In this document: piece by piece, positions 4,653 through 33,106 of the stretch | How the letters are laid out: every line of letters begins with the position of its first letter | How positions within the stretch are numbered: position 1 is the stretch's first letter | Assembly (NCBI GenBank): GCA_002705085.1 | Contig: PAHO01000048.1 | Location: 1 to 53,416 of the forward strand | Direction of reading: 5' to 3' | From: Phycisphaerae bacterium | GTDB taxonomy: Bacteria > Planctomycetota > Phycisphaerae > Phycisphaerales > SM1A02 | DNA: 53,416 bases | The notes under the pieces: model-generated | The model's input: only the letters and a program-made list of their open reading frames with translations | The model's database searches: none | What the model was told of the DNA's origin: nothing | Program-made: the position numbers and the translations under genes

Positions 4653-5480
4653 ATGAGTACGGCCGAACAAGCTTCTCGTCCCAGCCTTCGCAGTTTCCGC
4701 AGGCGACAGCCAGACGAAGCGCCATTTGCCTGTTTGACGGCATATGACGCTTTGACGGCGGGTCATCTCGCGTCATCGGGCATCCCACTGTTGTTGGTGG
4801 GAGATTCGTTGGCCCAAGTGGCCTTGGGCTACCCCGACACCACCCATGTCCCACTGGACATCATGGTGGCCCTGACCGCGGCCGTCAGGCGTGGCGCCCC
4901 CCAGGTTTTTGTCATGGCGGACCTTCCATTTTTGGCCGCCCTGACTGAAGAGGACGCGTTGCGAGCGGCAGCACGATTCGTCACCGAGGGTGGCGCCGAT
5001 GCGGTCAAGATCGAAATGGATGACAGCCGAACCGGTTGGATCAAAACCATGGCCGATGCCGGCATTGCCACCGTGCCCCACTTGGGGTGTCGCCCCCAAC
5101 ATGTCAAACGTGCCGGGGGATACCGCGTGGCCGGAAAGACCGCCGCCGACCGACAGCAGCTGGCCAATACGGCCAAGAACATGGAAGACGCCGGGGCCGT
5201 CATGCTTCTTCTCGAAGCGGCCACCCCTGAGGCCGCGCAAGCCATACGAGACAACACAACCCTTCCATTGATTGGTTGTGGCGCGGGACCAGACTGCGAC
5301 GGACAAATTGTTGTCACCGCTGACCTGCTTGGACTCACACCAAAGCAGCCCAGCTTTGCCCCCCCGATGGTGGATGGCGTCTCACCTCTGGTGAACATGG
5401 CCAAATCATGGATCCAAACCGTGGCCGACCGACAGGCGGGTGGGTCCTACCAAGCCAGTGATGGTGGGCACTCAAGATGA
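4653..5480 (+). CDS. panB: 3-methyl-2-oxobutanoate hydroxymethyltransferase
   Basis: A 275-aa protein of the usual PanB length. It transfers a one-carbon unit from 5,10-methylene-tetrahydrofolate to alpha-ketoisovalerate, the first step of pantothenate synthesis. Signature residues are present: the LTAYDA motif at 28-33, VGDS with metal-binding Asp51, DLPF with Asp90, KIE with Lys119 and Glu121, and catalytic Glu188. The IGCGAGPDCDGQ motif is also intact. The stop codon overlaps the start of the downstream protease by 4 nt. panC and panD are not in the window. Confidence 0.95.
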   Translation: MSTAEQASRPSLRSFRRRQPDEAPFACLTAYDALTAGHLASSGIPLLLVGDSLAQVALGYPDTTHVPLDIMVALTAAVRRGAPQVFVMADLPFLAALTEEDALRAAARFVTEGGADAVKIEMDDSRTGWIKTMADAGIATVPHLGCRPQHVKRAGGYRVAGKTAADRQQLANTAKNMEDAGAVMLLLEAATPEAAQAIRDNTTLPLIGCGAGPDCDGQIVVTADLLGLTPKQPSFAPPMVDGVSPLVNMAKSWIQTVADRQAGGSYQASDGGHSR

Positions 5481-10641: not shown

Positions 10642-11643
10642 ATGTCCTCTCCCACGGAGCCAGACCGCCCCGGCGGATATGCCCTTCCCACCGGAGCATT
10701 GCAAGCCCAGCGCCGTGCGAAGCGCGAACTGGAGGATGCCGACATCCATCTGCTGGGCGACACCGCCAAACCACATGAACCCAACACGGGTCGTCTAAAA
10801 GCTGCCCACTCCGCCCGGAACCCCAACACCCGGGTCTATGTGGGGGACTGCCGTGACGTGTTGGCCAAACTCCCTGAACGTGGGGAAGTGGATCTTATTT
10901 TTGCCGATCCCCCATTCAACTGGGATGTGCCCTATGAATCGTGGCGTGACGGAATGAGTCGGGCCGAGTACGAACGTTTTACGTTTGATTGGCTCGATGG
11001 TTGTATTGACGCCCTCTCCCCTACCGGTTCACTGTGGGTCAACATCCCAGATGACACCGCCGCGGAAATCGTGTTGCACCTCAAACGTCGCGGACTCACC
11101 ATGATCAACTGGTGCGTTTGGCACTTTCGGTTCGGCCAAAACCGAGACTCCTCGTTCATCATGAGCAAAGTTCACGCCCTGTATTTCGCCAAAGATCCTG
11201 ACCAGCGAATTTGGAATCCTGAACACATCATGGAACTTTCGGATCGCGCGAGTGTGTATGCCGATCCCAGAACGATGGCCAAAGATCAGAACAAGGGCCT
11301 TCGGCTCCCCATGGACGTCTGGTACGGGAAGTACTGGGGACGCATCCAAGGGAACAACAAGGAGCGCCGGCACCAGCATCACAACCAAATTCCTGAGGTC
11401 TATTTGGAACGCGTCATCTTGGCCTGCTCCAACGAGGGCGACCTTGTTCTGGACCCGTTCTTGGGCAGTGGGGGAACCTGCACCGTAGCCAAAGCCTGGG
11501 GGAGACGCTCCATTGGCATTGAACATTCTGCCGTCAACGCCAAGAGCGCTTGGGAGCGCATTCAAAATGGCATGGTGCGTAAAGGGGCCGCGGCAACTCC
11601 AACGGAAGAAGCTTCGCTCAATCGCCGTCGTCGGTCCGATTGA
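10642..11643 (+). CDS. Site-specific DNA methyltransferase (N6_N4 MTase family, beta order)
   Basis: A 333-aa protein. The amino-methyltransferase catalytic motif IV is FADPPFNW at residues ~87-94. The SAM-binding motif I, DPFLGSGGT, lies near the C-terminus (~residue 274). This order (IV before I) is that of beta-class adenine/cytosine-N4 methylases. The middle is a family-specific insert with a basic HQHHNQIP segment. There is no restriction endonuclease or specificity gene beside it, so it looks like a solitary methylase. Its last 26 nt overlap the 3' end of the convergent epimerase gene. The recognition sequence cannot be read from this. Confidence 0.88.
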   Translation: MSSPTEPDRPGGYALPTGALQAQRRAKRELEDADIHLLGDTAKPHEPNTGRLKAAHSARNPNTRVYVGDCRDVLAKLPERGEVDLIFADPPFNWDVPYESWRDGMSRAEYERFTFDWLDGCIDALSPTGSLWVNIPDDTAAEIVLHLKRRGLTMINWCVWHFRFGQNRDSSFIMSKVHALYFAKDPDQRIWNPEHIMELSDRASVYADPRTMAKDQNKGLRLPMDVWYGKYWGRIQGNNKERRHQHHNQIPEVYLERVILACSNEGDLVLDPFLGSGGTCTVAKAWGRRSIGIEHSAVNAKSAWERIQNGMVRKGAAATPTEEASLNRRRRSD

Positions 11644-23661: not shown

Positions 23662-25023
23662 ATGACCACCAATACCCCAAACGAATCCCAATCTTCCCGC
23701 GGTCAGTGGAGCGGCCGGCTCGGCTTTATTGCCGCGGCCGCAGGCAGTTCCATTGGGCTTGGCAATATTTGGAAATTCCCTTACATCACTGGCGAGAACG
23801 GTGGCGGGGCCTTTGTGCTGGTGTACCTGCTCTGCATCCTTCTCATCGCTGCACCGATTCTGATCGCCGAGATTTTGATTGGTCGAGCCAGTCAGAAGGG
23901 AGCGGTCGGCGCGTTCCCCGCCCTGGCCGGACGTGGCACTGCTTGGAGTTCGGTGGGCATCTTGGGCCTCATTGGCGCCACATTGATGCTTTCATTCTAC
24001 GCCGTTATTGGTGGCTGGACTATCTATTACACCTGGCTGTACATCAGTGGCGGCATGCCTGAGGGCGCGCAAGCAATTACAGCATTGAATGACAATACCT
24101 CTCAAAGCGCCACCACTTCCGGCATGTGGCATAGCGTGTTCATGTTCTGCTGCGTCGCCTTGGTCATTGGTGGTGTCCAAAAAGGCATTGAACGTGCGGC
24201 CAAAGTGCTGATGCCAGTCTTGGCTCTGGTCATGGTCCTGATCATCGGCAACGGCGTCATGCTGGATGGTTTTGGCAAAGCGTTGTCGTTCATTTTTGCG
24301 CCTCGATTCGATGAGCTCACCGCCAGCGGCATGTTGGAAGCACTTGGACATGCTTTTTTTAGCGTGGGGATTGGCATTGGCGTCATGTTGACGTATGGCT
24401 CATACCTGTCGAAAAAAGAAGACGTGGTGGGCACATCCATTTTTATTGCCGGAGCCGACACGTTGATTGCCATCATGGCCTGCTTGATGGTGTTTCCGAT
24501 CACCTTCAGCTTTGGCCTCGATCCGGATGCAGGACCCGGCTTGGTCTTCAAAACTATCCCCATCGCGCTTGAGCAGTTGCCGGGAGGAGGTATTTGGGGC
24601 GTTATGTTCTTTGGCTTGCTGTTCTTTGCGGCCCTGACCAGCGCGATTTCTCTTCTTGAAGTGCCGTGCGCCTTCTTGATTGATGAACTTGGATGGAAGC
24701 GGGTCAGTGCGACCATCGTGGCAGGCCTGTTCATTTTGCTGCTGGGTCTTCCAGCAGCCATCGGGGAAGATCCAACCGTCCACCCTTGGTTCAGAGGTTG
24801 GCTGGGCGATGTGGACTACATCGTGTCCAACTGGATCTTGCCGATCGGCGGTCTTGGCGTCGCCCTGTTTGTCGGGTATCGCCTACGCCGCGACGTGTTG
24901 GATGAAGCGTTCCAAACTGCTCCGTGGCTGTTGGGGCCATTCCGCTTTTTGATCAAGGTGTTGGCACCCGTAGCCATCCTGGCCATCTTCTTGAACAAGA
25001 TCGGCGTCCTGTCGTTCACCTAA
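23662..25023 (+). CDS. Sodium-dependent transporter, neurotransmitter:sodium symporter family
   Basis: 453 aa with about 11-12 membrane segments. The NSS signature of TM1 is clear: GFIAAAAGSSIGLGNIWKFPYITGENGGGAFVLVYL, including the unwound GLGN stretch that binds sodium and substrate. SFYAVIGGWTIYY (TM3) and the TM6 region SVGIGIGVMLTYGSYL also match. Bacterial members import amino acids such as tryptophan, tyrosine or leucine. It has an AGGAG ribosome-binding site ahead of ATG 23662 and a short leader. It ends 4 nt inside the convergent sulfotransferase gene. Confidence 0.93.
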   Translation: MTTNTPNESQSSRGQWSGRLGFIAAAAGSSIGLGNIWKFPYITGENGGGAFVLVYLLCILLIAAPILIAEILIGRASQKGAVGAFPALAGRGTAWSSVGILGLIGATLMLSFYAVIGGWTIYYTWLYISGGMPEGAQAITALNDNTSQSATTSGMWHSVFMFCCVALVIGGVQKGIERAAKVLMPVLALVMVLIIGNGVMLDGFGKALSFIFAPRFDELTASGMLEALGHAFFSVGIGIGVMLTYGSYLSKKEDVVGTSIFIAGADTLIAIMACLMVFPITFSFGLDPDAGPGLVFKTIPIALEQLPGGGIWGVMFFGLLFFAALTSAISLLEVPCAFLIDELGWKRVSATIVAGLFILLLGLPAAIGEDPTVHPWFRGWLGDVDYIVSNWILPIGGLGVALFVGYRLRRDVLDEAFQTAPWLLGPFRFLIKVLAPVAILAIFLNKIGVLSFT

Positions 25024-25871
25024 TCAAAGCAATACCCGAGACGATCCATCAGAGCTTCCATCTGTGGCCGTGCATCCTGGACCACTTTGGGATCCAGTTC
25101 TGATCGCCATCGATCAATTCGAGTGGGATCCGCCTCTTTCACCGCACGATCAATCATGACTTGACCATGGTCGAATCCACAGAAATCAACCAGTGCGCCC
25201 ATGGTTTGCTTGGGAGAAGCCATCATGTCTTCGTAACGAAATTGGAAAACCCGGTCTTGAGAAAAATGCTCAGTGGCATCGAGGGCGGAACGCAGGGTCT
25301 CAGACCACTGCCACCCCAATCGCGCCCCTTTGGACATGTGCATGGCCTCGCGCCAGCCGGCCGGCTTCGGTCCCCACCACGACAATTTGCGTTTGAACAA
25401 CTTCGCACCAAGGGTCTCGACTGCGATTGGGACATATTTGGGCCAATGCCAGGGCGGCACTTCACGCAATCGCGTGATCAAGCGGCGGCGATTGATGCCC
25501 TGCCCTTGCATTTCGTCACTTGATCGCAACACCGAACGTCCATCTCGAACGACCAAGACGAATTTTGCTTCAGGCAGTACACGGGCCACGAATTCGGCCC
25601 GCAGACAATTGCTTGGTGTTTTTTCACAAAACTGCCCCCCCCCAGCGGCTTGGACACGGTGCTGAAATGCCTCGCGGATGGCATCGCAGACTTGAGGCGT
25701 GGCACGATCCGCAGGGATGGCATCATCATCGCGCTTGGGATCGCCTCGCATCCACACCGGCCGGGGTTCTGACCAATACACCGTTCCCGGACAGGCCTCG
25801 AAGAGTCTCCCCAACCAAGAAGTCCCTGAACGATGGGTGCCAAGCAAGACGATGGGAGGCGGATGGAACAT
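25020..25871 (-). CDS. Sulfotransferase family protein
   Basis: 283 aa. Transfers sulfate from PAPS to an acceptor. The 5'-phosphosulfate loop LLGTHRSGTSWLGRLFEACPG is at residues ~9-29, and the 3'-phosphate motif VVRDGRSVLRSSDEM is at ~105-120. The FRYEDMMASPKQTMGALVDFCGF block near residue 215 is typical of bacterial Sulfotransfer_1/3 proteins. The acceptor is unknown: glycan, lipid and small molecule are all possible. A TAATGT hexamer lies 10 nt before the ATG, further than in most starts here. A sulfatase is encoded 7 kb away. Confidence 0.88.
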   Translation of the reverse strand: MFHPPPIVLLGTHRSGTSWLGRLFEACPGTVYWSEPRPVWMRGDPKRDDDAIPADRATPQVCDAIREAFQHRVQAAGGGQFCEKTPSNCLRAEFVARVLPEAKFVLVVRDGRSVLRSSDEMQGQGINRRRLITRLREVPPWHWPKYVPIAVETLGAKLFKRKLSWWGPKPAGWREAMHMSKGARLGWQWSETLRSALDATEHFSQDRVFQFRYEDMMASPKQTMGALVDFCGFDHGQVMIDRAVKEADPTRIDRWRSELDPKVVQDARPQMEALMDRLGYCFD

Positions 25872-25963
25872 CTCGTTTCAGACATTACCGAACCCCCGAG
25901 CCACAAGGCGTGTCGTAAAAGACGAATCCTTGTGTGCTGGGAACCAAAATTCGCCGACTCGAC

Positions 25964-25969
25964 TACACT
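25964..25969 (+). promoter_or_regulatory. -10 element (TACACT) ahead of the kamA leader RNA
   Basis: TACACT in a GACTACACTC context predicts a start near 25976. That is 14 nt before the first stem of the structured leader and about 157 nt before the coding start. Confidence 0.45.
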
Positions 25970-25989
25970 CAGCGACCCAAATGGCCCAG

Positions 25990-26088
25990 CCGCTGAGAGG
26001 TGAGGCCACAGGTTTACTTGGGCCATGACTGGCCTGAGTTGCGTCCAGGGCGGTCCTGTGGTGCACCTTCCAAGATCCAGCTGAGCGG
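25990..26088 (+). ncRNA. Structured leader RNA candidate (possible riboswitch) of the kamA-like gene
   Basis: Four stems nest within 99 nt. P1 is CCGCT/AGCGG (25990-25994 with 26084-26088). P2 is GAGGTG/CACCTT (25997-26002 with 26064-26069, one G-U). P3 is CCACAGG/CCTGTGG (26006-26012 with 26055-26061). P4 is a 10-bp hairpin (26016-26025 with 26030-26039, two G-U pairs, TGAC loop). There is an AGG/TG internal loop between P2 and P3 and a 15-nt unpaired arm after P4. It lies between a -10 element and the coding start, and no convincing ORF covers it. I could not match it to lysine, TPP, SAM, cobalamin, c-di-GMP or SRP consensus sequences. It could also be a protein-binding or attenuation element. 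The fold is hand-derived. Confidence 0.45.
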
Positions 26089-26132
26089 ACCGTGTCCTTC
26101 GCGGCCCCTTTGTGCAGCACGCTCCCACGAAC

Positions 26133-27506
26133 ATGATCCAATCGACCCAAGATCCCGCACCGAAATTCCAAGCCGTCATCCGCTCCAACGTGGAGAAGAC
26201 CCCCCAGTGGGCAAGCTTGGACCCTGAACTTCGTGAAGGCATTGAGGTGCTTTCACTGGTGCTGCCATTCCGAACCAACAAGTACGTGATGGACGAGTTG
26301 ATCGACTGGACCAACGTGCCCAATGACCCCATCTTCAACTTGGTCTTCCCCCGCTCGGGAATGCTGGAAGAAGACGAATTCAACGAAGTGCGCGACTTGG
26401 TCCGCAACGAAGCCGCCAAGCCAGAAATCGATGCGGCGGTCGAACGCATTCGCAACCGGCTCAACCCGCACCCCGCCGGCCAAATGACCCACAACGTGCC
26501 CCATGTCGATGGCGAGCCCATCCCTGGACTGCAGCACAAGTACCGCGAGACCGTTCTCTTCTTCCCCGCGCACGGACAAACCTGCCACGCCTACTGCACC
26601 TTCTGCTTCCGCTGGGCCCAGTTCATCGGCGACGAAGACCTCAAGTTCGCCAACAAGGAAGTGGATCAACTGGTTCGGTACTTGCGACAGCACCCGGAAG
26701 TCAGCGACGTGCTGTTTACGGGTGGCGACCCAATGGTGATGAAGGCCAAGGTCCTTGAGCGGTACATCCGTCCCATTTTGGAAGACCCAGAATTAGAACA
26801 CATTCGAACCATCCGCATTGGCACCAAGAGCGTGGCCTACTGGCCGCAGCGCTATGTCAGTGACGCCGACGCCGAAGATGTGCTGCGTCTCTTTGAAGAT
26901 GTGGTCAAGAGTGGACGCACCCTCGGCATCATGGGCCACTACTCCCACGGCGTGGAACTGAAGACCGACGTCTCGCGTGAAGCCATCCGGCGCATCCGAA
27001 ACACCGGCGCCAACATCCGCATGCAAAGCCCTGTCATTCGGCATGTCAACGACGACGCTGGCATCTGGAAAGACATGTGGCGCGAAGGGGCCGATCAAGG
27101 ACTCATTCCGTACTACATGTTTGTGGAACGAGATACGGGGCCAAAGAAGTGGTTTGAGCTCCCATTGGTGGACGTGTGGAACATCTTCCGAGAGGCCTAC
27201 CGAGATCTCTCGGGGATCTGCCGAACCGTCCGCGGACCATCCATGAGCGCGTTCCCCGGCAAAGTGCATGTCTTGGGCCCAGTGGATCTGGCCGGCGGCA
27301 AAGCACTCGCTTTGGAGTACTTGCAGTGCCGGAACCCAGAAATGGTTCGCAGGCCCTTCTTTGCGAAATACAGCGCCACGGCTTCGTGGTTTGACGAACT
27401 CGAACCTCTCACCGAGGCCGACGCGAAGTTCTGGCCTGGAAATTGGGATGCGGACTCCCTCTCTGAAGAAGGAATTCCCCTCACAGTTGGTAGTTCTGAC
27501 GGATAA
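26133..27506 (+). CDS. Radical SAM enzyme, lysine 2,3-aminomutase (KamA) family
   Basis: 457 aa from ATG 26133; a GTG at 26112 is an in-frame alternative. The iron-sulfur motif Cx3Cx2C is CHAYCTFC (Cys151, 155, 158). It is followed by DVLFTGGDPMVM, the KamA SAM-contact block. The N-terminal DPIFNLVFPRSGML and the HNVPHVDGEPIPGLQHKYRETVLFF region align with aminomutases. The usual PLP-lysine motif PGGGGK is not present; SAFPGKVHVLG sits in its place and retains one Lys. PLP binding, and hence the reaction, is therefore uncertain. It may be a divergent aminomutase or another mutase. It is preceded by the structured leader, which suggests ligand or stress control. Confidence 0.87.
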   Translation: MIQSTQDPAPKFQAVIRSNVEKTPQWASLDPELREGIEVLSLVLPFRTNKYVMDELIDWTNVPNDPIFNLVFPRSGMLEEDEFNEVRDLVRNEAAKPEIDAAVERIRNRLNPHPAGQMTHNVPHVDGEPIPGLQHKYRETVLFFPAHGQTCHAYCTFCFRWAQFIGDEDLKFANKEVDQLVRYLRQHPEVSDVLFTGGDPMVMKAKVLERYIRPILEDPELEHIRTIRIGTKSVAYWPQRYVSDADAEDVLRLFEDVVKSGRTLGIMGHYSHGVELKTDVSREAIRRIRNTGANIRMQSPVIRHVNDDAGIWKDMWREGADQGLIPYYMFVERDTGPKKWFELPLVDVWNIFREAYRDLSGICRTVRGPSMSAFPGKVHVLGPVDLAGGKALALEYLQCRNPEMVRRPFFAKYSATASWFDELEPLTEADAKFWPGNWDADSLSEEGIPLTVGSSDG

Positions 27507-27532: not shown

Positions 27533-28765
27533 ATGCTAAGCCCCGATCAAACTTCGGACACTCCTGCGCCAGCCGGTGATGACACTTTCTCTTTCTCCTT
27601 CCTTCAGGATTGGTTGAGTTGGCTTCCCGACACCACCTTCTTGAATGTTGCCTCGTGGCAATGGGTCGGACTCGCTTTGATCATCTTCCTAGGCTTGGTT
27701 GGGCAGTTGCTGATCAAAACCGTACTGTGGCGAGTGCTTGGCAAACTGCTTGGGGGTGAAATTGAAATTCAACGAAATCTGATCAGCGCCGTGGGTCTGG
27801 CGGTGGCCGGATTTGTCTGGAGCCGACTCTTGCCGTTCTTGTCTTTTGAGGGGACAGTGCTTGAGGTCTTCGAAGGTGGCGCACGCGTCTTTATGGTCCT
27901 TGCGGGGACGTTGGCCGGGTTCCGAGGCGTAGACGCTCTGGGCGCATGGGCGACGAAAAAGGCTGGGAATACAGAGGGCAGGCTTGATGACATCCTGGTC
28001 CCGCTCGGTCGAAAGACGCTGAAAGTTCTCGTTATCTCCATGGGCGCTGTCAATCTTGCACCCCTTCTCGGTCTGCACATCACTCCATTGCTCGGTGCGC
28101 TTGGTGTTGGTGGTATTGGCTTTGCGTTTGCCGCACAAAACACCATCGAAAATCTCTTTGGATCAGTAACCATCGTCTTGGATCGCCCGTTCTCGGTTGG
28201 CGACTGGGTGGAGGTAGATGGTGTTGATGGCACCGTCGAAGAGGTTGGGCTTCGATCAACCCAAGTTCGGACCTTTTATGACTCGTTGGTGTCGATCCCC
28301 AATGCCAAATTGACCACCGCCATCGTCGACAACTATGGCAGCCGAAAATTCCGACGATTCAAAGCAACGCTCGGTGTTCGGTATGAAACAACTCCCGAAC
28401 AAATCGAAGCTTTTTGTAGCGGCATTAAAACGCTCGTCGCCGAACGTTCAGACACGCGCAAAGATGTTTGCTACGCGGAGCTGAACGGATTTGGTGATTT
28501 CAGCCTGAACATCATGCTGTACATGTTCTTCGAGTGCAAAGATTGGACGGCCGAACTCCGAGGGAGGCACGAATTGATGCTTGACATTATTCGCCTCGCC
28601 CACGAACTTGGCGTGGAGTTTGCCTTCCCAACCCAGGTCGTTCACATTGCCGAGCAAGCTCTTCCGATGGAGCGACCCGATAGCTTCAGTTCGGTCAATG
28701 GCCAAGAATCTGCACTGCAGCTTGGTGCGGCGAAAGCCAAAGAGATCGGTGGTCGAGGCGCATAG
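27533..28765 (+). CDS. Small-conductance mechanosensitive channel (MscS family)
   Basis: 410 aa. Opens under membrane tension to release solutes on osmotic downshock. N-terminal membrane segments lie at ~42-65, ~80-100 and ~113-135. The pore helix region APLLGLHITPLLGALGVGGIGFAFAAQNTIENLFGS (~178-213) has the Gly/Ala pattern of MscS TM3. It is followed by the beta-domain VLDRPFSVGDWVEVDGVDGTVEEVGLRSTQVRTFYDSLVSIPNA. The C-terminal alpha/beta domain is intact. It has one more predicted N-terminal segment and tail than minimal MscS. The leaderless-type promoter suggests it is transcribed independently of kamA. Confidence 0.93.
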   Translation: MLSPDQTSDTPAPAGDDTFSFSFLQDWLSWLPDTTFLNVASWQWVGLALIIFLGLVGQLLIKTVLWRVLGKLLGGEIEIQRNLISAVGLAVAGFVWSRLLPFLSFEGTVLEVFEGGARVFMVLAGTLAGFRGVDALGAWATKKAGNTEGRLDDILVPLGRKTLKVLVISMGAVNLAPLLGLHITPLLGALGVGGIGFAFAAQNTIENLFGSVTIVLDRPFSVGDWVEVDGVDGTVEEVGLRSTQVRTFYDSLVSIPNAKLTTAIVDNYGSRKFRRFKATLGVRYETTPEQIEAFCSGIKTLVAERSDTRKDVCYAELNGFGDFSLNIMLYMFFECKDWTAELRGRHELMLDIIRLAHELGVEFAFPTQVVHIAEQALPMERPDSFSSVNGQESALQLGAAKAKEIGGRGA

Positions 28766-30458: not shown

Positions 30459-31705
30459 AGCTCCCCAGATACGAAATAGAAGGGCCTCGCTGCGCCAAGC
30501 AACGACTTGGGGTCGTGGCAGCGTTGTACCTCGCCCAAGGGATTCCTTGGGGATTCGCCACCATCACGCTCGCCGCCCTCTTGGCAGAGCAAGGCGTGGA
30601 TGCGGGCGCCATCGGAAAATTGCTGGCTGCAGTGGTGTTGCCTTGGAGCTTCAAATTTGTTGGCGGGCCATTGGTGGATGGCATTCGCCTTCCGGGCGGG
30701 CGACGCCGACCTTGGATACTCCTTGCCCAAATGGGCATGGTGGCCACACTCATAGGGCTGTCTCAGGTGGGTCTTGCCTCACCTGATCAACTCAGCGCTT
30801 GGCTGTTGGCCCACAATGTGTTCGCCGCCTTGCAGGATGTGGCCACCGATGCTTTGGCGGTTGACGTCATGCCTGAGCGTGAACGCGGCCGAGCCAACGG
30901 CATCATGTACGGCGCAAAATATGGAGGCACGGCCATCGGGGGCGCGGGGTTGGCCCTGCTCATTCAACACTTTGACTGGTCGGTCGGCACGCTTTTCCAA
31001 GCGGTCGTGGTTGGATCGATCAGCGCAGTGCCCTTGCTTCTTCGTGAGCCCGATCACGATCAGTCGACCAAGTCCTCAACAACACACTGGATCATCTCCC
31101 TCGGCGAGTTGCTGCACAGTCGTCCATTCTGGTGGACGCTCGCGTTGTGCTTGGTGATTGGCCTCCCCAGCGCACTGTTAACGCCACTCGCCAACACCTT
31201 ATTCGTCGAGCAATATGGATGGACCGCCACCAGTTGGGCCGTCCTGAATGGTGGACCAGGAGTCACCGCAGGGTTGATGGGAGCCGTGGGTGGTGGCTTC
31301 TTGGTCAGTCGGTATGGTCCAGGACGAATTGGCATTCTGGCCGCAAGCGCGCATGCGGGCACGATGTTGATTTTTCCCCTGTGCCCAGAACTGTTCCACA
31401 ACAAAGACATTGTCAGCCTGACGCTGGTGGTGCAATCTGCCGCCGCAGGGGCAGTGACGGTCGGAAGCTTCACACTCGCCATGCGCGTCGCTCCGCCAGT
31501 GCTCGCTGCGTCATGCTTCACCGCGCTGATGGCAATGCAAAACCTCTCCACCACGAGCGGCTACTGGGCTGCGAACCAAATGCCTTCAGAGCCAGGAACC
31601 GCTTGGACCATCGTGGCCGTGATTTGGTGTGTGGTTGGCTTGCTTAGTTGGCAGGCGGATCGATCTGCCCAGCGGGGCGAACTTCCGACCCCGTCCGGCC
31701 AGTAA
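30440..31705 (+). CDS. MFS permease, AmpG-like (muropeptide/peptide-acetyl-CoA transporter family)
   Basis: About 421 aa with 12 predicted membrane segments. YLAQGIPWGFATITLAALLAEQGVDAGAIG, VLPWSFKFVGGPLVDGI, GRRRPWILLAQ and ALQDVATDALAVDVMPERERGRANG all match the AmpG/PAT pattern. AmpG imports anhydromuropeptides for cell-wall recycling. The open frame reaches back to 30344, inside the phosphoesterase gene. There is no in-frame ATG after that gene ends, so GTG 30440 (19-nt overlap) is preferred and GTG 30515 is an alternative. The 3' end overlaps the convergent sulfatase by 62 nt. Confidence 0.85.
   Translation: MGSFSLKLPRYEIEGPRCAKQRLGVVAALYLAQGIPWGFATITLAALLAEQGVDAGAIGKLLAAVVLPWSFKFVGGPLVDGIRLPGGRRRPWILLAQMGMVATLIGLSQVGLASPDQLSAWLLAHNVFAALQDVATDALAVDVMPERERGRANGIMYGAKYGGTAIGGAGLALLIQHFDWSVGTLFQAVVVGSISAVPLLLREPDHDQSTKSSTTHWIISLGELLHSRPFWWTLALCLVIGLPSALLTPLANTLFVEQYGWTATSWAVLNGGPGVTAGLMGAVGGGFLVSRYGPGRIGILAASAHAGTMLIFPLCPELFHNKDIVSLTLVVQSAAAGAVTVGSFTLAMRVAPPVLAASCFTALMAMQNLSTTSGYWAANQMPSEPGTAWTIVAVIWCVVGLLSWQADRSAQRGELPTPSGQ
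30442..30466 (+). repeat. Perfect hairpin across the phosphoesterase stop codon
   Basis: GGGGAGCTTC (30442-30451) and GAAGCTCCCC (30457-30466) form a 10-bp stem with a TCTCT loop. No T-tract follows, so it is not a standard intrinsic terminator. It would sequester the initiation region of the AmpG-like gene. Confidence 0.5.
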
Positions 31706-33041
31706 GCGTATCCCCGAGGCGAGCTCGCCAATCTTCAGCGACCTCTCGGAGTTCGCGTACTACATCAGGGTGGGCAATCGCGACGTCATGTCGCTCATAG
31801 GGGTCAGATTCAAGATCAAACAACGCTTCTTCAATCTTTGCATCCCAGCGATACCGGCCGGGCTTTCCGCCTCCCCCTTGAGGCTGGCCCTGCATGGTGC
31901 GGTAGGTATGGGGCAAATGAAGCTTCCATTGTCCTTTTCGCACGGCTTCAAGATGTCCGGTGTGGTAGTAAAACGCTGAAGTGGGTCTGGGAGGGGACGC
32001 ATCCTTTTCGTCAAGAAGAACCGCCGTGGCATCTCGACCATCGATGGGATGATCGGGCAACGGAGCGTCGATCAATGCCGCAACGGTGGGCAACACATCG
32101 ATGGTCATCCAGTGCACCCCGCTCACCCTCCCGGCGGGAATCGTGCCGGGCCACCGGGCAATACACGGCACGCGGATCCCGCCCTCAAAGGTGGTGCCTT
32201 TGCCTTCCCGAAGACCCGCGGTGGTTCCGGCATGATCTCCATAAGAAAGCCAAGGCCCATTGTCACTGGTGAACACCACCAAAGTGTTCTCATCAATCCC
32301 GAGTTCTTTCAACGCATCCAAGATCTGGCCGACGCCGCGATCGATTTCTGCAATGACATCGCCCAAGACACCATCACCACTGAGCCCATCGCCAGATTCA
32401 GAGACAAACAATGGAACATGGGGCATCGGGTGCGCCAAATACGCAAAGAAAGGTTTCTCCGCCGCATGGCTCTGACGAATGAAAGCAATGGTCCGATCCG
32501 TAAATCCCGTGGTAAATGATCGCTGGTCCGGCTGCACTCGAACCACTTCCTCATTTTCGAAGAAAGGGAGCGGTGGATACGTGCCCTTCTTGGCTTCCGG
32601 GTGACTGGGCCACATGTCGTTGGAATATGGAATGCCCGAAAACTCATCAAAGCCATGGCGGGTGGGTAAAAATGGGGGCAGGTGTCCCAAGTGCCACTTG
32701 CCGTGAATGGCCGTGGCGTAGCCACGTGACTTGCACAGTTCAGCCAGCGTGGTCTCTGAGGCAGAAAGCCCATGCTTGGCATGAGGGCCAAGGGCCCCGT
32801 GGATTGACAGTCGGTTGGCGTAACACCCGGTCAACAACGAAGCTCGGGAAGCAGAACACACGGGTTGCGACACGCAAAAGTCGGTGAAGCGAACCCCCTC
32901 GGCGGCCATGGCGTCAAGGTGCGGCGTCCGCCATCGCTGTTCTCCCTGGCACGAGAGGTCCCCGTAGCCCAGATCATCACAAAAGATGATGACCACATTG
33001 GGTGGCGAAGCAATCAACAACGACAACGCAAGAGAAAGCAT
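31644..33041 (-). CDS. Sulfatase (formylglycine-dependent, arylsulfatase type)
   Basis: 465 aa with a short signal peptide (MLSLALSLLIA). It hydrolyses sulfate esters, probably of sulfated polysaccharides, outside the cytoplasm. NVVIIFCDDLGYGDLSC begins the metal site. The formylglycine motif is CSASR with Cys62 and Arg66. The GKWHLGH block and FTSDNGPW follow. The C-terminal subdomain ends with the LYDLxxDPxE-like LFDLESDPYERHDV. The gene starts directly behind the terminator of the lipoprotein operon. Its last 62 nt are antisense to the AmpG-like gene. The anaerobic or FGE maturase is not in the window. Confidence 0.95.
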   Translation of the reverse strand: MLSLALSLLIASPPNVVIIFCDDLGYGDLSCQGEQRWRTPHLDAMAAEGVRFTDFCVSQPVCSASRASLLTGCYANRLSIHGALGPHAKHGLSASETTLAELCKSRGYATAIHGKWHLGHLPPFLPTRHGFDEFSGIPYSNDMWPSHPEAKKGTYPPLPFFENEEVVRVQPDQRSFTTGFTDRTIAFIRQSHAAEKPFFAYLAHPMPHVPLFVSESGDGLSGDGVLGDVIAEIDRGVGQILDALKELGIDENTLVVFTSDNGPWLSYGDHAGTTAGLREGKGTTFEGGIRVPCIARWPGTIPAGRVSGVHWMTIDVLPTVAALIDAPLPDHPIDGRDATAVLLDEKDASPPRPTSAFYYHTGHLEAVRKGQWKLHLPHTYRTMQGQPQGGGGKPGRYRWDAKIEEALFDLESDPYERHDVAIAHPDVVRELREVAEDWRARLGDTLTGRTGSEVRPAGQIDPPAN

Positions 33042-33048
33042 GGCCTAG

Positions 33049-33054
33049 AGCATA
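33049..33054 (-). promoter_or_regulatory. -10 element (TATGCT) of the sulfatase gene
   Basis: On the minus strand TATGCT ends 7 nt before the ATG at 33041. It directly abuts the T-tract of the upstream terminator. Confidence 0.5.
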
Positions 33055-33085
33055 AAAAAACCGCCGCGTCTAGGAGACGCGGCGG
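33055..33085 (-). terminator. Rho-independent terminator of the COG3014-LpoB operon
   Basis: On the minus strand a perfect 11-bp stem (33075-33085 with 33061-33071, 3-nt loop) is followed by a run of at least six T. It lies 21 nt after the LpoB-like stop codon. Confidence 0.93.
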
Positions 33086-33106
33086 CGAGCCAATGACAGG
33101 TGGAAG

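Follow-up and report, generated by a model that had tools for sequence, protein, structure and literature searches.

The gene for a KamA-family radical SAM protein in a small, marine Phycisphaerae bacterium (GTDB lineage SM1A02) is preceded by a leader of about 160 nt. Because this leader is near-constant between species and its base pairs are kept, it is probably a new regulatory RNA. The gene was found in a stretch of 53,416 nucleotides from contig PAHO01000048.1, which we refer to as the window. With moderate confidence we favour a lineage-restricted cis-regulatory leader on the KamA-like gene that would act on translation initiation and is possibly tied to osmotic state.

Conservation of the leader within the genus

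Orthologues of the KamA-like gene were identified in three further members of the genus (93-97% protein identity) and in about 12 members of other genera of the family (57-68%). The leader could be aligned end to end in four species of the genus, the window and its congeners L020, L021 and L022, three of which are closely related. Over the last 88 nt the window is 91% and 94% identical to L020 and L021, which share 87.5% with each other, whereas the fourfold sites of the KamA-like gene are only 64-69% identical among these three (66-69% for the window against L020 or L021). The 82 nt 5' of this segment are 45-57% identical among the same species. In the comparisons with L022 the values fall to 62-63% for the last 88 nt and 36-41% for the preceding 82 nt. 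The substitutions do not have the character of coding changes. Among the close species those in the last 48 nt, read in the frame of the gene, are not silent third-position changes, and the sole third-position change alters the residue. A 1-nt indel in L022 breaks the reading frames of the leader, and no small ORF within it is common to all four species.

The window, L020 and L022 have a divergent sulfotransferase gene (25020-25871) that was not found in L021, where an SNF transporter gene precedes the leader. Since the leader is kept in L021 without the sulfotransferase gene, we assign it to the KamA-like gene. The TACACT element is retained in the window, L021 and L022/L005 and altered in L020. 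ACACTC aligns across the window, L021 and, in part, L022, and the sequence 5' of TACACT is poorly conserved in the congeners. The same CTACACTC is found immediately 5' of the start codon at 10642. A promoter scan gave no sigma-70-type site. The leader contains no Shine-Dalgarno sequence and no terminator-like site or terminator hairpin with a U-run before the gene, and so does not qualify as a transcription attenuator.

Table 1. Features of the leader and the KamA-like gene, in window coordinates.
Feature	Position	Strand	Basis
Putative -10 promoter element (TACACT) for the leader	25964..25969	+	inferred; alignment of congeners
Leader RNA (5' UTR) of the KamA-like gene, about 157-163 nt	25976..26132	+	aligned in the window, L020, L021 and L022; 5' end predicted from the -10 element
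Invariant AGG (25998-26000) and GCC (26005-26007)	25998..26007	+	identical in all 4 rows of alignments A1 and A2
Apical hairpin, 26019-26024 paired with 26031-26036	26019..26036	+	6/6 pairs in 4 species; 4 two-sided; local alifold z -6.1
Start-proximal helix, 5' strand GGG.GGU...GUG.UGCAC	26048..26066	+	consensus pairing with 26112-26126
Inner hairpin GAG.GG.CCGUG/CGCGG.CC.CUU	26083..26110	+	97.5% of cells paired; 2 pairs two-sided; enclosed by the start-proximal helix
Start-proximal helix, 3' strand GUGCA.CACGCUCCC	26112..26126	+	consensus structure; ends 6 nt before AUG
KamA-family radical SAM gene, 457 aa from ATG	26133..27506	+	TIGR00238 E 3.3e-37, under all family cut-offs

For 30 start sites of the window, TANNNT was counted in 10-nt bins: the bin spanning -20 to -11 had 11 occurrences, the remaining bins 0-2 each. 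Such -10-like elements lie 12-16 nt before the starts at 4653, 10014, 10642, 20235, 27533 and 28785 on the plus strand and at 25871, 23611, 44373, 33041 and 17815 on the minus strand. This clustering suggests that many transcripts start at or next to the start codon, and that many mRNAs of this genome may be leaderless; a leader of 160 nt is an exception in this setting. We also observed a terminator-like inverted repeat, GCCGCCGCGTCTCCTAGACGCGGCGGTTTTTTT, at about 33042-33086, immediately ahead of the minus-strand gene 31644-33041.

Consensus fold and covariation

The consensus fold obtained with RNAalifold consists of an apical hairpin and a start-proximal domain (Table 1). On the four-species alignment 96.2% of its cells are paired and 7 pairs have changed on both sides. 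Shuffled alignments gave a mean of 2.7 two-sided pairs, with 7 reached in 1 of 500, and slid control folds were 36-50% paired with 0-1 two-sided pairs. When helices kept in all four species were enumerated, the apical hairpin came far ahead of the others. Against column-shuffled controls the alifold z was -4.2 for the whole leader and about -2.9 for the 3' domain, compared with -6.1 for the apical hairpin. Alignment A2 gave a z of -4.5 on the sense strand of the leader, better than the -3.4 of the antisense strand and lower than the minimum of -3.6 in 228 neighbouring-gene windows on both strands; at least 6 two-sided pairs were also seen in 7 of the 228 control gene windows.

The start-proximal domain is less strongly supported by the alignment than the apical hairpin. 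In its helix one pair has changed from C-G to A-U, in L022. The minimum-energy folds predicted for L020 and L022 lack this helix, and its pairing probability there is close to 0. The invariant AGG and GCC triplets possibly form a 3-bp mini-hairpin or pair with GGUCCU at 26052-26057. The leader thus has the conserved predicted structure with compensatory changes expected of a cis-regulatory leader RNA, most strongly in the apical hairpin. The comparison between species shows selection on the leader as an RNA, as judged from conservation well above that of fourfold sites, noncoding substitutions, covariation in the apical hairpin, some double changes in the start-proximal domain, and restriction to one gene and one genus.

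The original prediction had read a different structure from the window sequence, namely four nested stems between the TACACT element and the ATG at 26133. Both elements and the stems, within 25998-26068, are present as claimed. They include a 10-bp hairpin (26016-26025/26030-26039), a 7-bp stem CCACAGG/CCUGUGG (26006-26012/26055-26061) and a 5-bp stem AGGUG/CACCU (25998-26002/26064-26068). As a conserved structure the nest did not hold up. Outside the apical hairpin its stems are broken in at least one relative, and it is kept only partly in L021 and not in L022. All of its two-sided changes fall within the apical hairpin, where compensation is found as predicted; the two outer stems are not kept in related species. 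We rejected the nest as the conserved fold, with 77.4% on the alignment against 96.2% for the alternative. The energy test was similarly divided. The nested core, 25997-26070, folds at -37.0 kcal/mol, compared with -26.6 ± 3.3 kcal/mol in shuffled sequence (z -3.2, 0 of 200), a z that carries the selection of this segment for being nested. The segment 25976-26074 gave a z of -1.25, 25985-26132 a z of 0.02 and the whole leader, 25976-26135, a z of 0.10, which is the level of shuffled sequence and, for the leader as a whole, an outcome that the original prediction had named as refuting it. On one sequence alone the claim for the leader would fail.

Distribution of the leader and context of the enzyme

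That the leader matches no known riboswitch class, as originally predicted, was borne out by Rfam, with no match at the gathering threshold, none at E ≤ 10 in 25800-26300 and none at E ≤ 5 in the congeners. These searches covered the Na+-I, Li+/Na+-II, ydaO, lysine and SAM classes, none of whose covariance-model thresholds it reached. A model built from the genus (R2) gave, with strict filters, one site in each of the four genus members and no others among 181 family genomes. All four sites precede the KamA-like gene, as expected of a leader that regulates this gene in cis. The comparison of species supports the prediction of a cis-regulatory RNA ahead of this gene.

Orthologues in two further genera follow a different leader, which is likewise constrained; in the better-sampled neighbouring genus it is 82-99% identical, against 50-79% at fourfold sites. 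This second leader (in L006-L008, L094-L096 and L107) is about 115-220 nt long, conserved and structured, with hairpins GUUGCCC/GGGUGAC, CCACG/CGUGG and GGGAGC/GCUCCC and, in one genus, an additional 5' helix GGCGAUGGG/CCCGUCGCC. A model of this leader (R3) gave confident matches only before the KamA-like orthologue; its matches in genomes G162 and G209 fall within long ORFs, of 569 aa and 553 aa, and were regarded as chance. Both leaders are long and conserved, follow a CTACAMT-like element and are more constrained than fourfold sites, but their sequences and folds could not be aligned with significance. Local alignments fell within the range of shuffles, with 0.04 as the smallest fraction among 20 comparisons, nhmmer gave an E of 3.3, and R2 and R3 did not cross-match.

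By profile comparison the downstream protein is a distant KamA relative, below every specific family cut-off. It scored 110.6 bits against TIGR03820 (AblA), where the cut-off is 525.4, and so is not a member of AblA; its nearest solved structure is lysine 2,3-aminomutase (2a5h). The same genome has a second, more distant KamA-family gene, L118 (G000:C38:1384-2307). Directly 3' of the KamA-like gene lies an MscS-type channel gene (27533-28765), and the two adjoin in the genus of the window, in Enhygromyxa (L027) and in Marinospirillum and its relatives (L028, L045, L048, L053 and L054). Many relatives come from halophiles, for example Halomonas. As the signal, lysine or SAM finds no specific support. 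Judged by the gene context, osmotic or ionic state is at least as good a candidate as the lysine, SAM or cofactor first suggested. Osmotic state is a reasonable guess, based on the MscS neighbour in several lineages and on Na+-I riboswitches associated with ablA elsewhere.

Possible mechanism and alternatives

We suggest that the KamA-like mRNA begins just 3' of TACACT, carries the leader of ~160 nt and is controlled at translation initiation through alternative pairing. Positions -21 to -7 relative to the AUG, taken up by the 3' strand of the start-proximal helix, would fall within the ribosome footprint. In the species of the window, the stems AGGUG/CACCU and CCACAGG/CCUGUGG of the upstream nest would occupy the 5' strand of the same helix; since nest and helix compete for 26055-26068, the two folds are mutually exclusive. 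For the window the calculated energies lie close together, at -61.7 kcal/mol for the minimum, -59.8 kcal/mol with the nest constrained and -58.9 kcal/mol with the start-proximal domain constrained. The balance might be tipped by a signal, possibly ionic, osmotic or the product of the enzyme, or by a protein. The competing nest is not conserved across species, and the switch itself is what we infer from these pairings.

A further question is whether the leader is a riboswitch. There is a precedent in the Na+-I riboswitches, which, alone or in tandem with a c-di-AMP riboswitch, have been linked to the lysine 2,3-aminomutase gene in its osmolyte role (PMC9337991). The leader might likewise represent a new class that binds a small molecule or ion (Na+, K+, c-di-AMP or a beta-amino acid, for example) and controls an osmolyte enzyme, as Na+-I does with ablA and eam in other bacteria. 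The adjoining MscS-type gene and the halophilic relatives fit such a class. The leader resembles the Na+-I (DUF1646 motif) and tandem Na+/c-di-AMP riboswitches before ablA (PMC9337991) in being structured, in preceding a gene of the lysine-2,3-aminomutase family and in its osmotic context. It differs from Na+-I in having neither an Rfam match nor an intrinsic terminator, and in that its gene is only a distant KamA relative. With the lysine (L-box) riboswitch it shares the position as leader RNA of a lysine-related gene, but the architecture differs and no match was found at E ≤ 10. Known riboswitch cores usually persist across genera, whereas this leader was confined to its genus and the neighbouring leader could not be aligned to it, and we consider a new riboswitch class possible but doubtful. 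The fuller version, a lineage-restricted class that reads osmotic state through an ion or beta-amino-acid osmolyte and gates translation of the KamA-family enzyme in a genome with many leaderless-looking genes, seems to us unlikely.

Constraint on the DNA, from operator sites or a second promoter, could also leave hairpins as by-products of palindromic protein sites, and the window does contain the palindromes GGTGCACC (26060-26067) and GGACCGTGTCC (26087-26097). Both are lost in L022 while the long-range pairs are retained there, the compensatory changes connect positions about 50 nt apart, and the last 45 nt contain no TANNNT element, which makes this reading decidedly improbable. It is more improbable still that the constraint comes from a small upstream ORF or an extended N-terminus, through attenuation or translational coupling. 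In the window, L020 and L021 a GTG at 26092 does begin a frame of 14 codons that ends in a TGA overlapping the ATG, but the 1-nt insertion in L022 joins it to the reading frame of the gene, and the few changes among the window, L020 and L021 fall at first or second positions of the GTG frame. For an extension, the window has a TGA at 26082 in the main frame, where the changes, as noted above, are not the silent ones of a coding sequence. A cis-regulatory leader RNA that would act on translation initiation is the reading we favour.

To our knowledge, from a small literature search and general familiarity with the field, few cis-regulatory RNAs of Planctomycetes seem to have experimental support. 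For the leader described here there are defined coordinates, a fold open to testing, one well supported hairpin and a hypothesis of alternative pairing, and it precedes a candidate enzyme. Its signal, if found, would also point to the function of the KamA-like enzyme.
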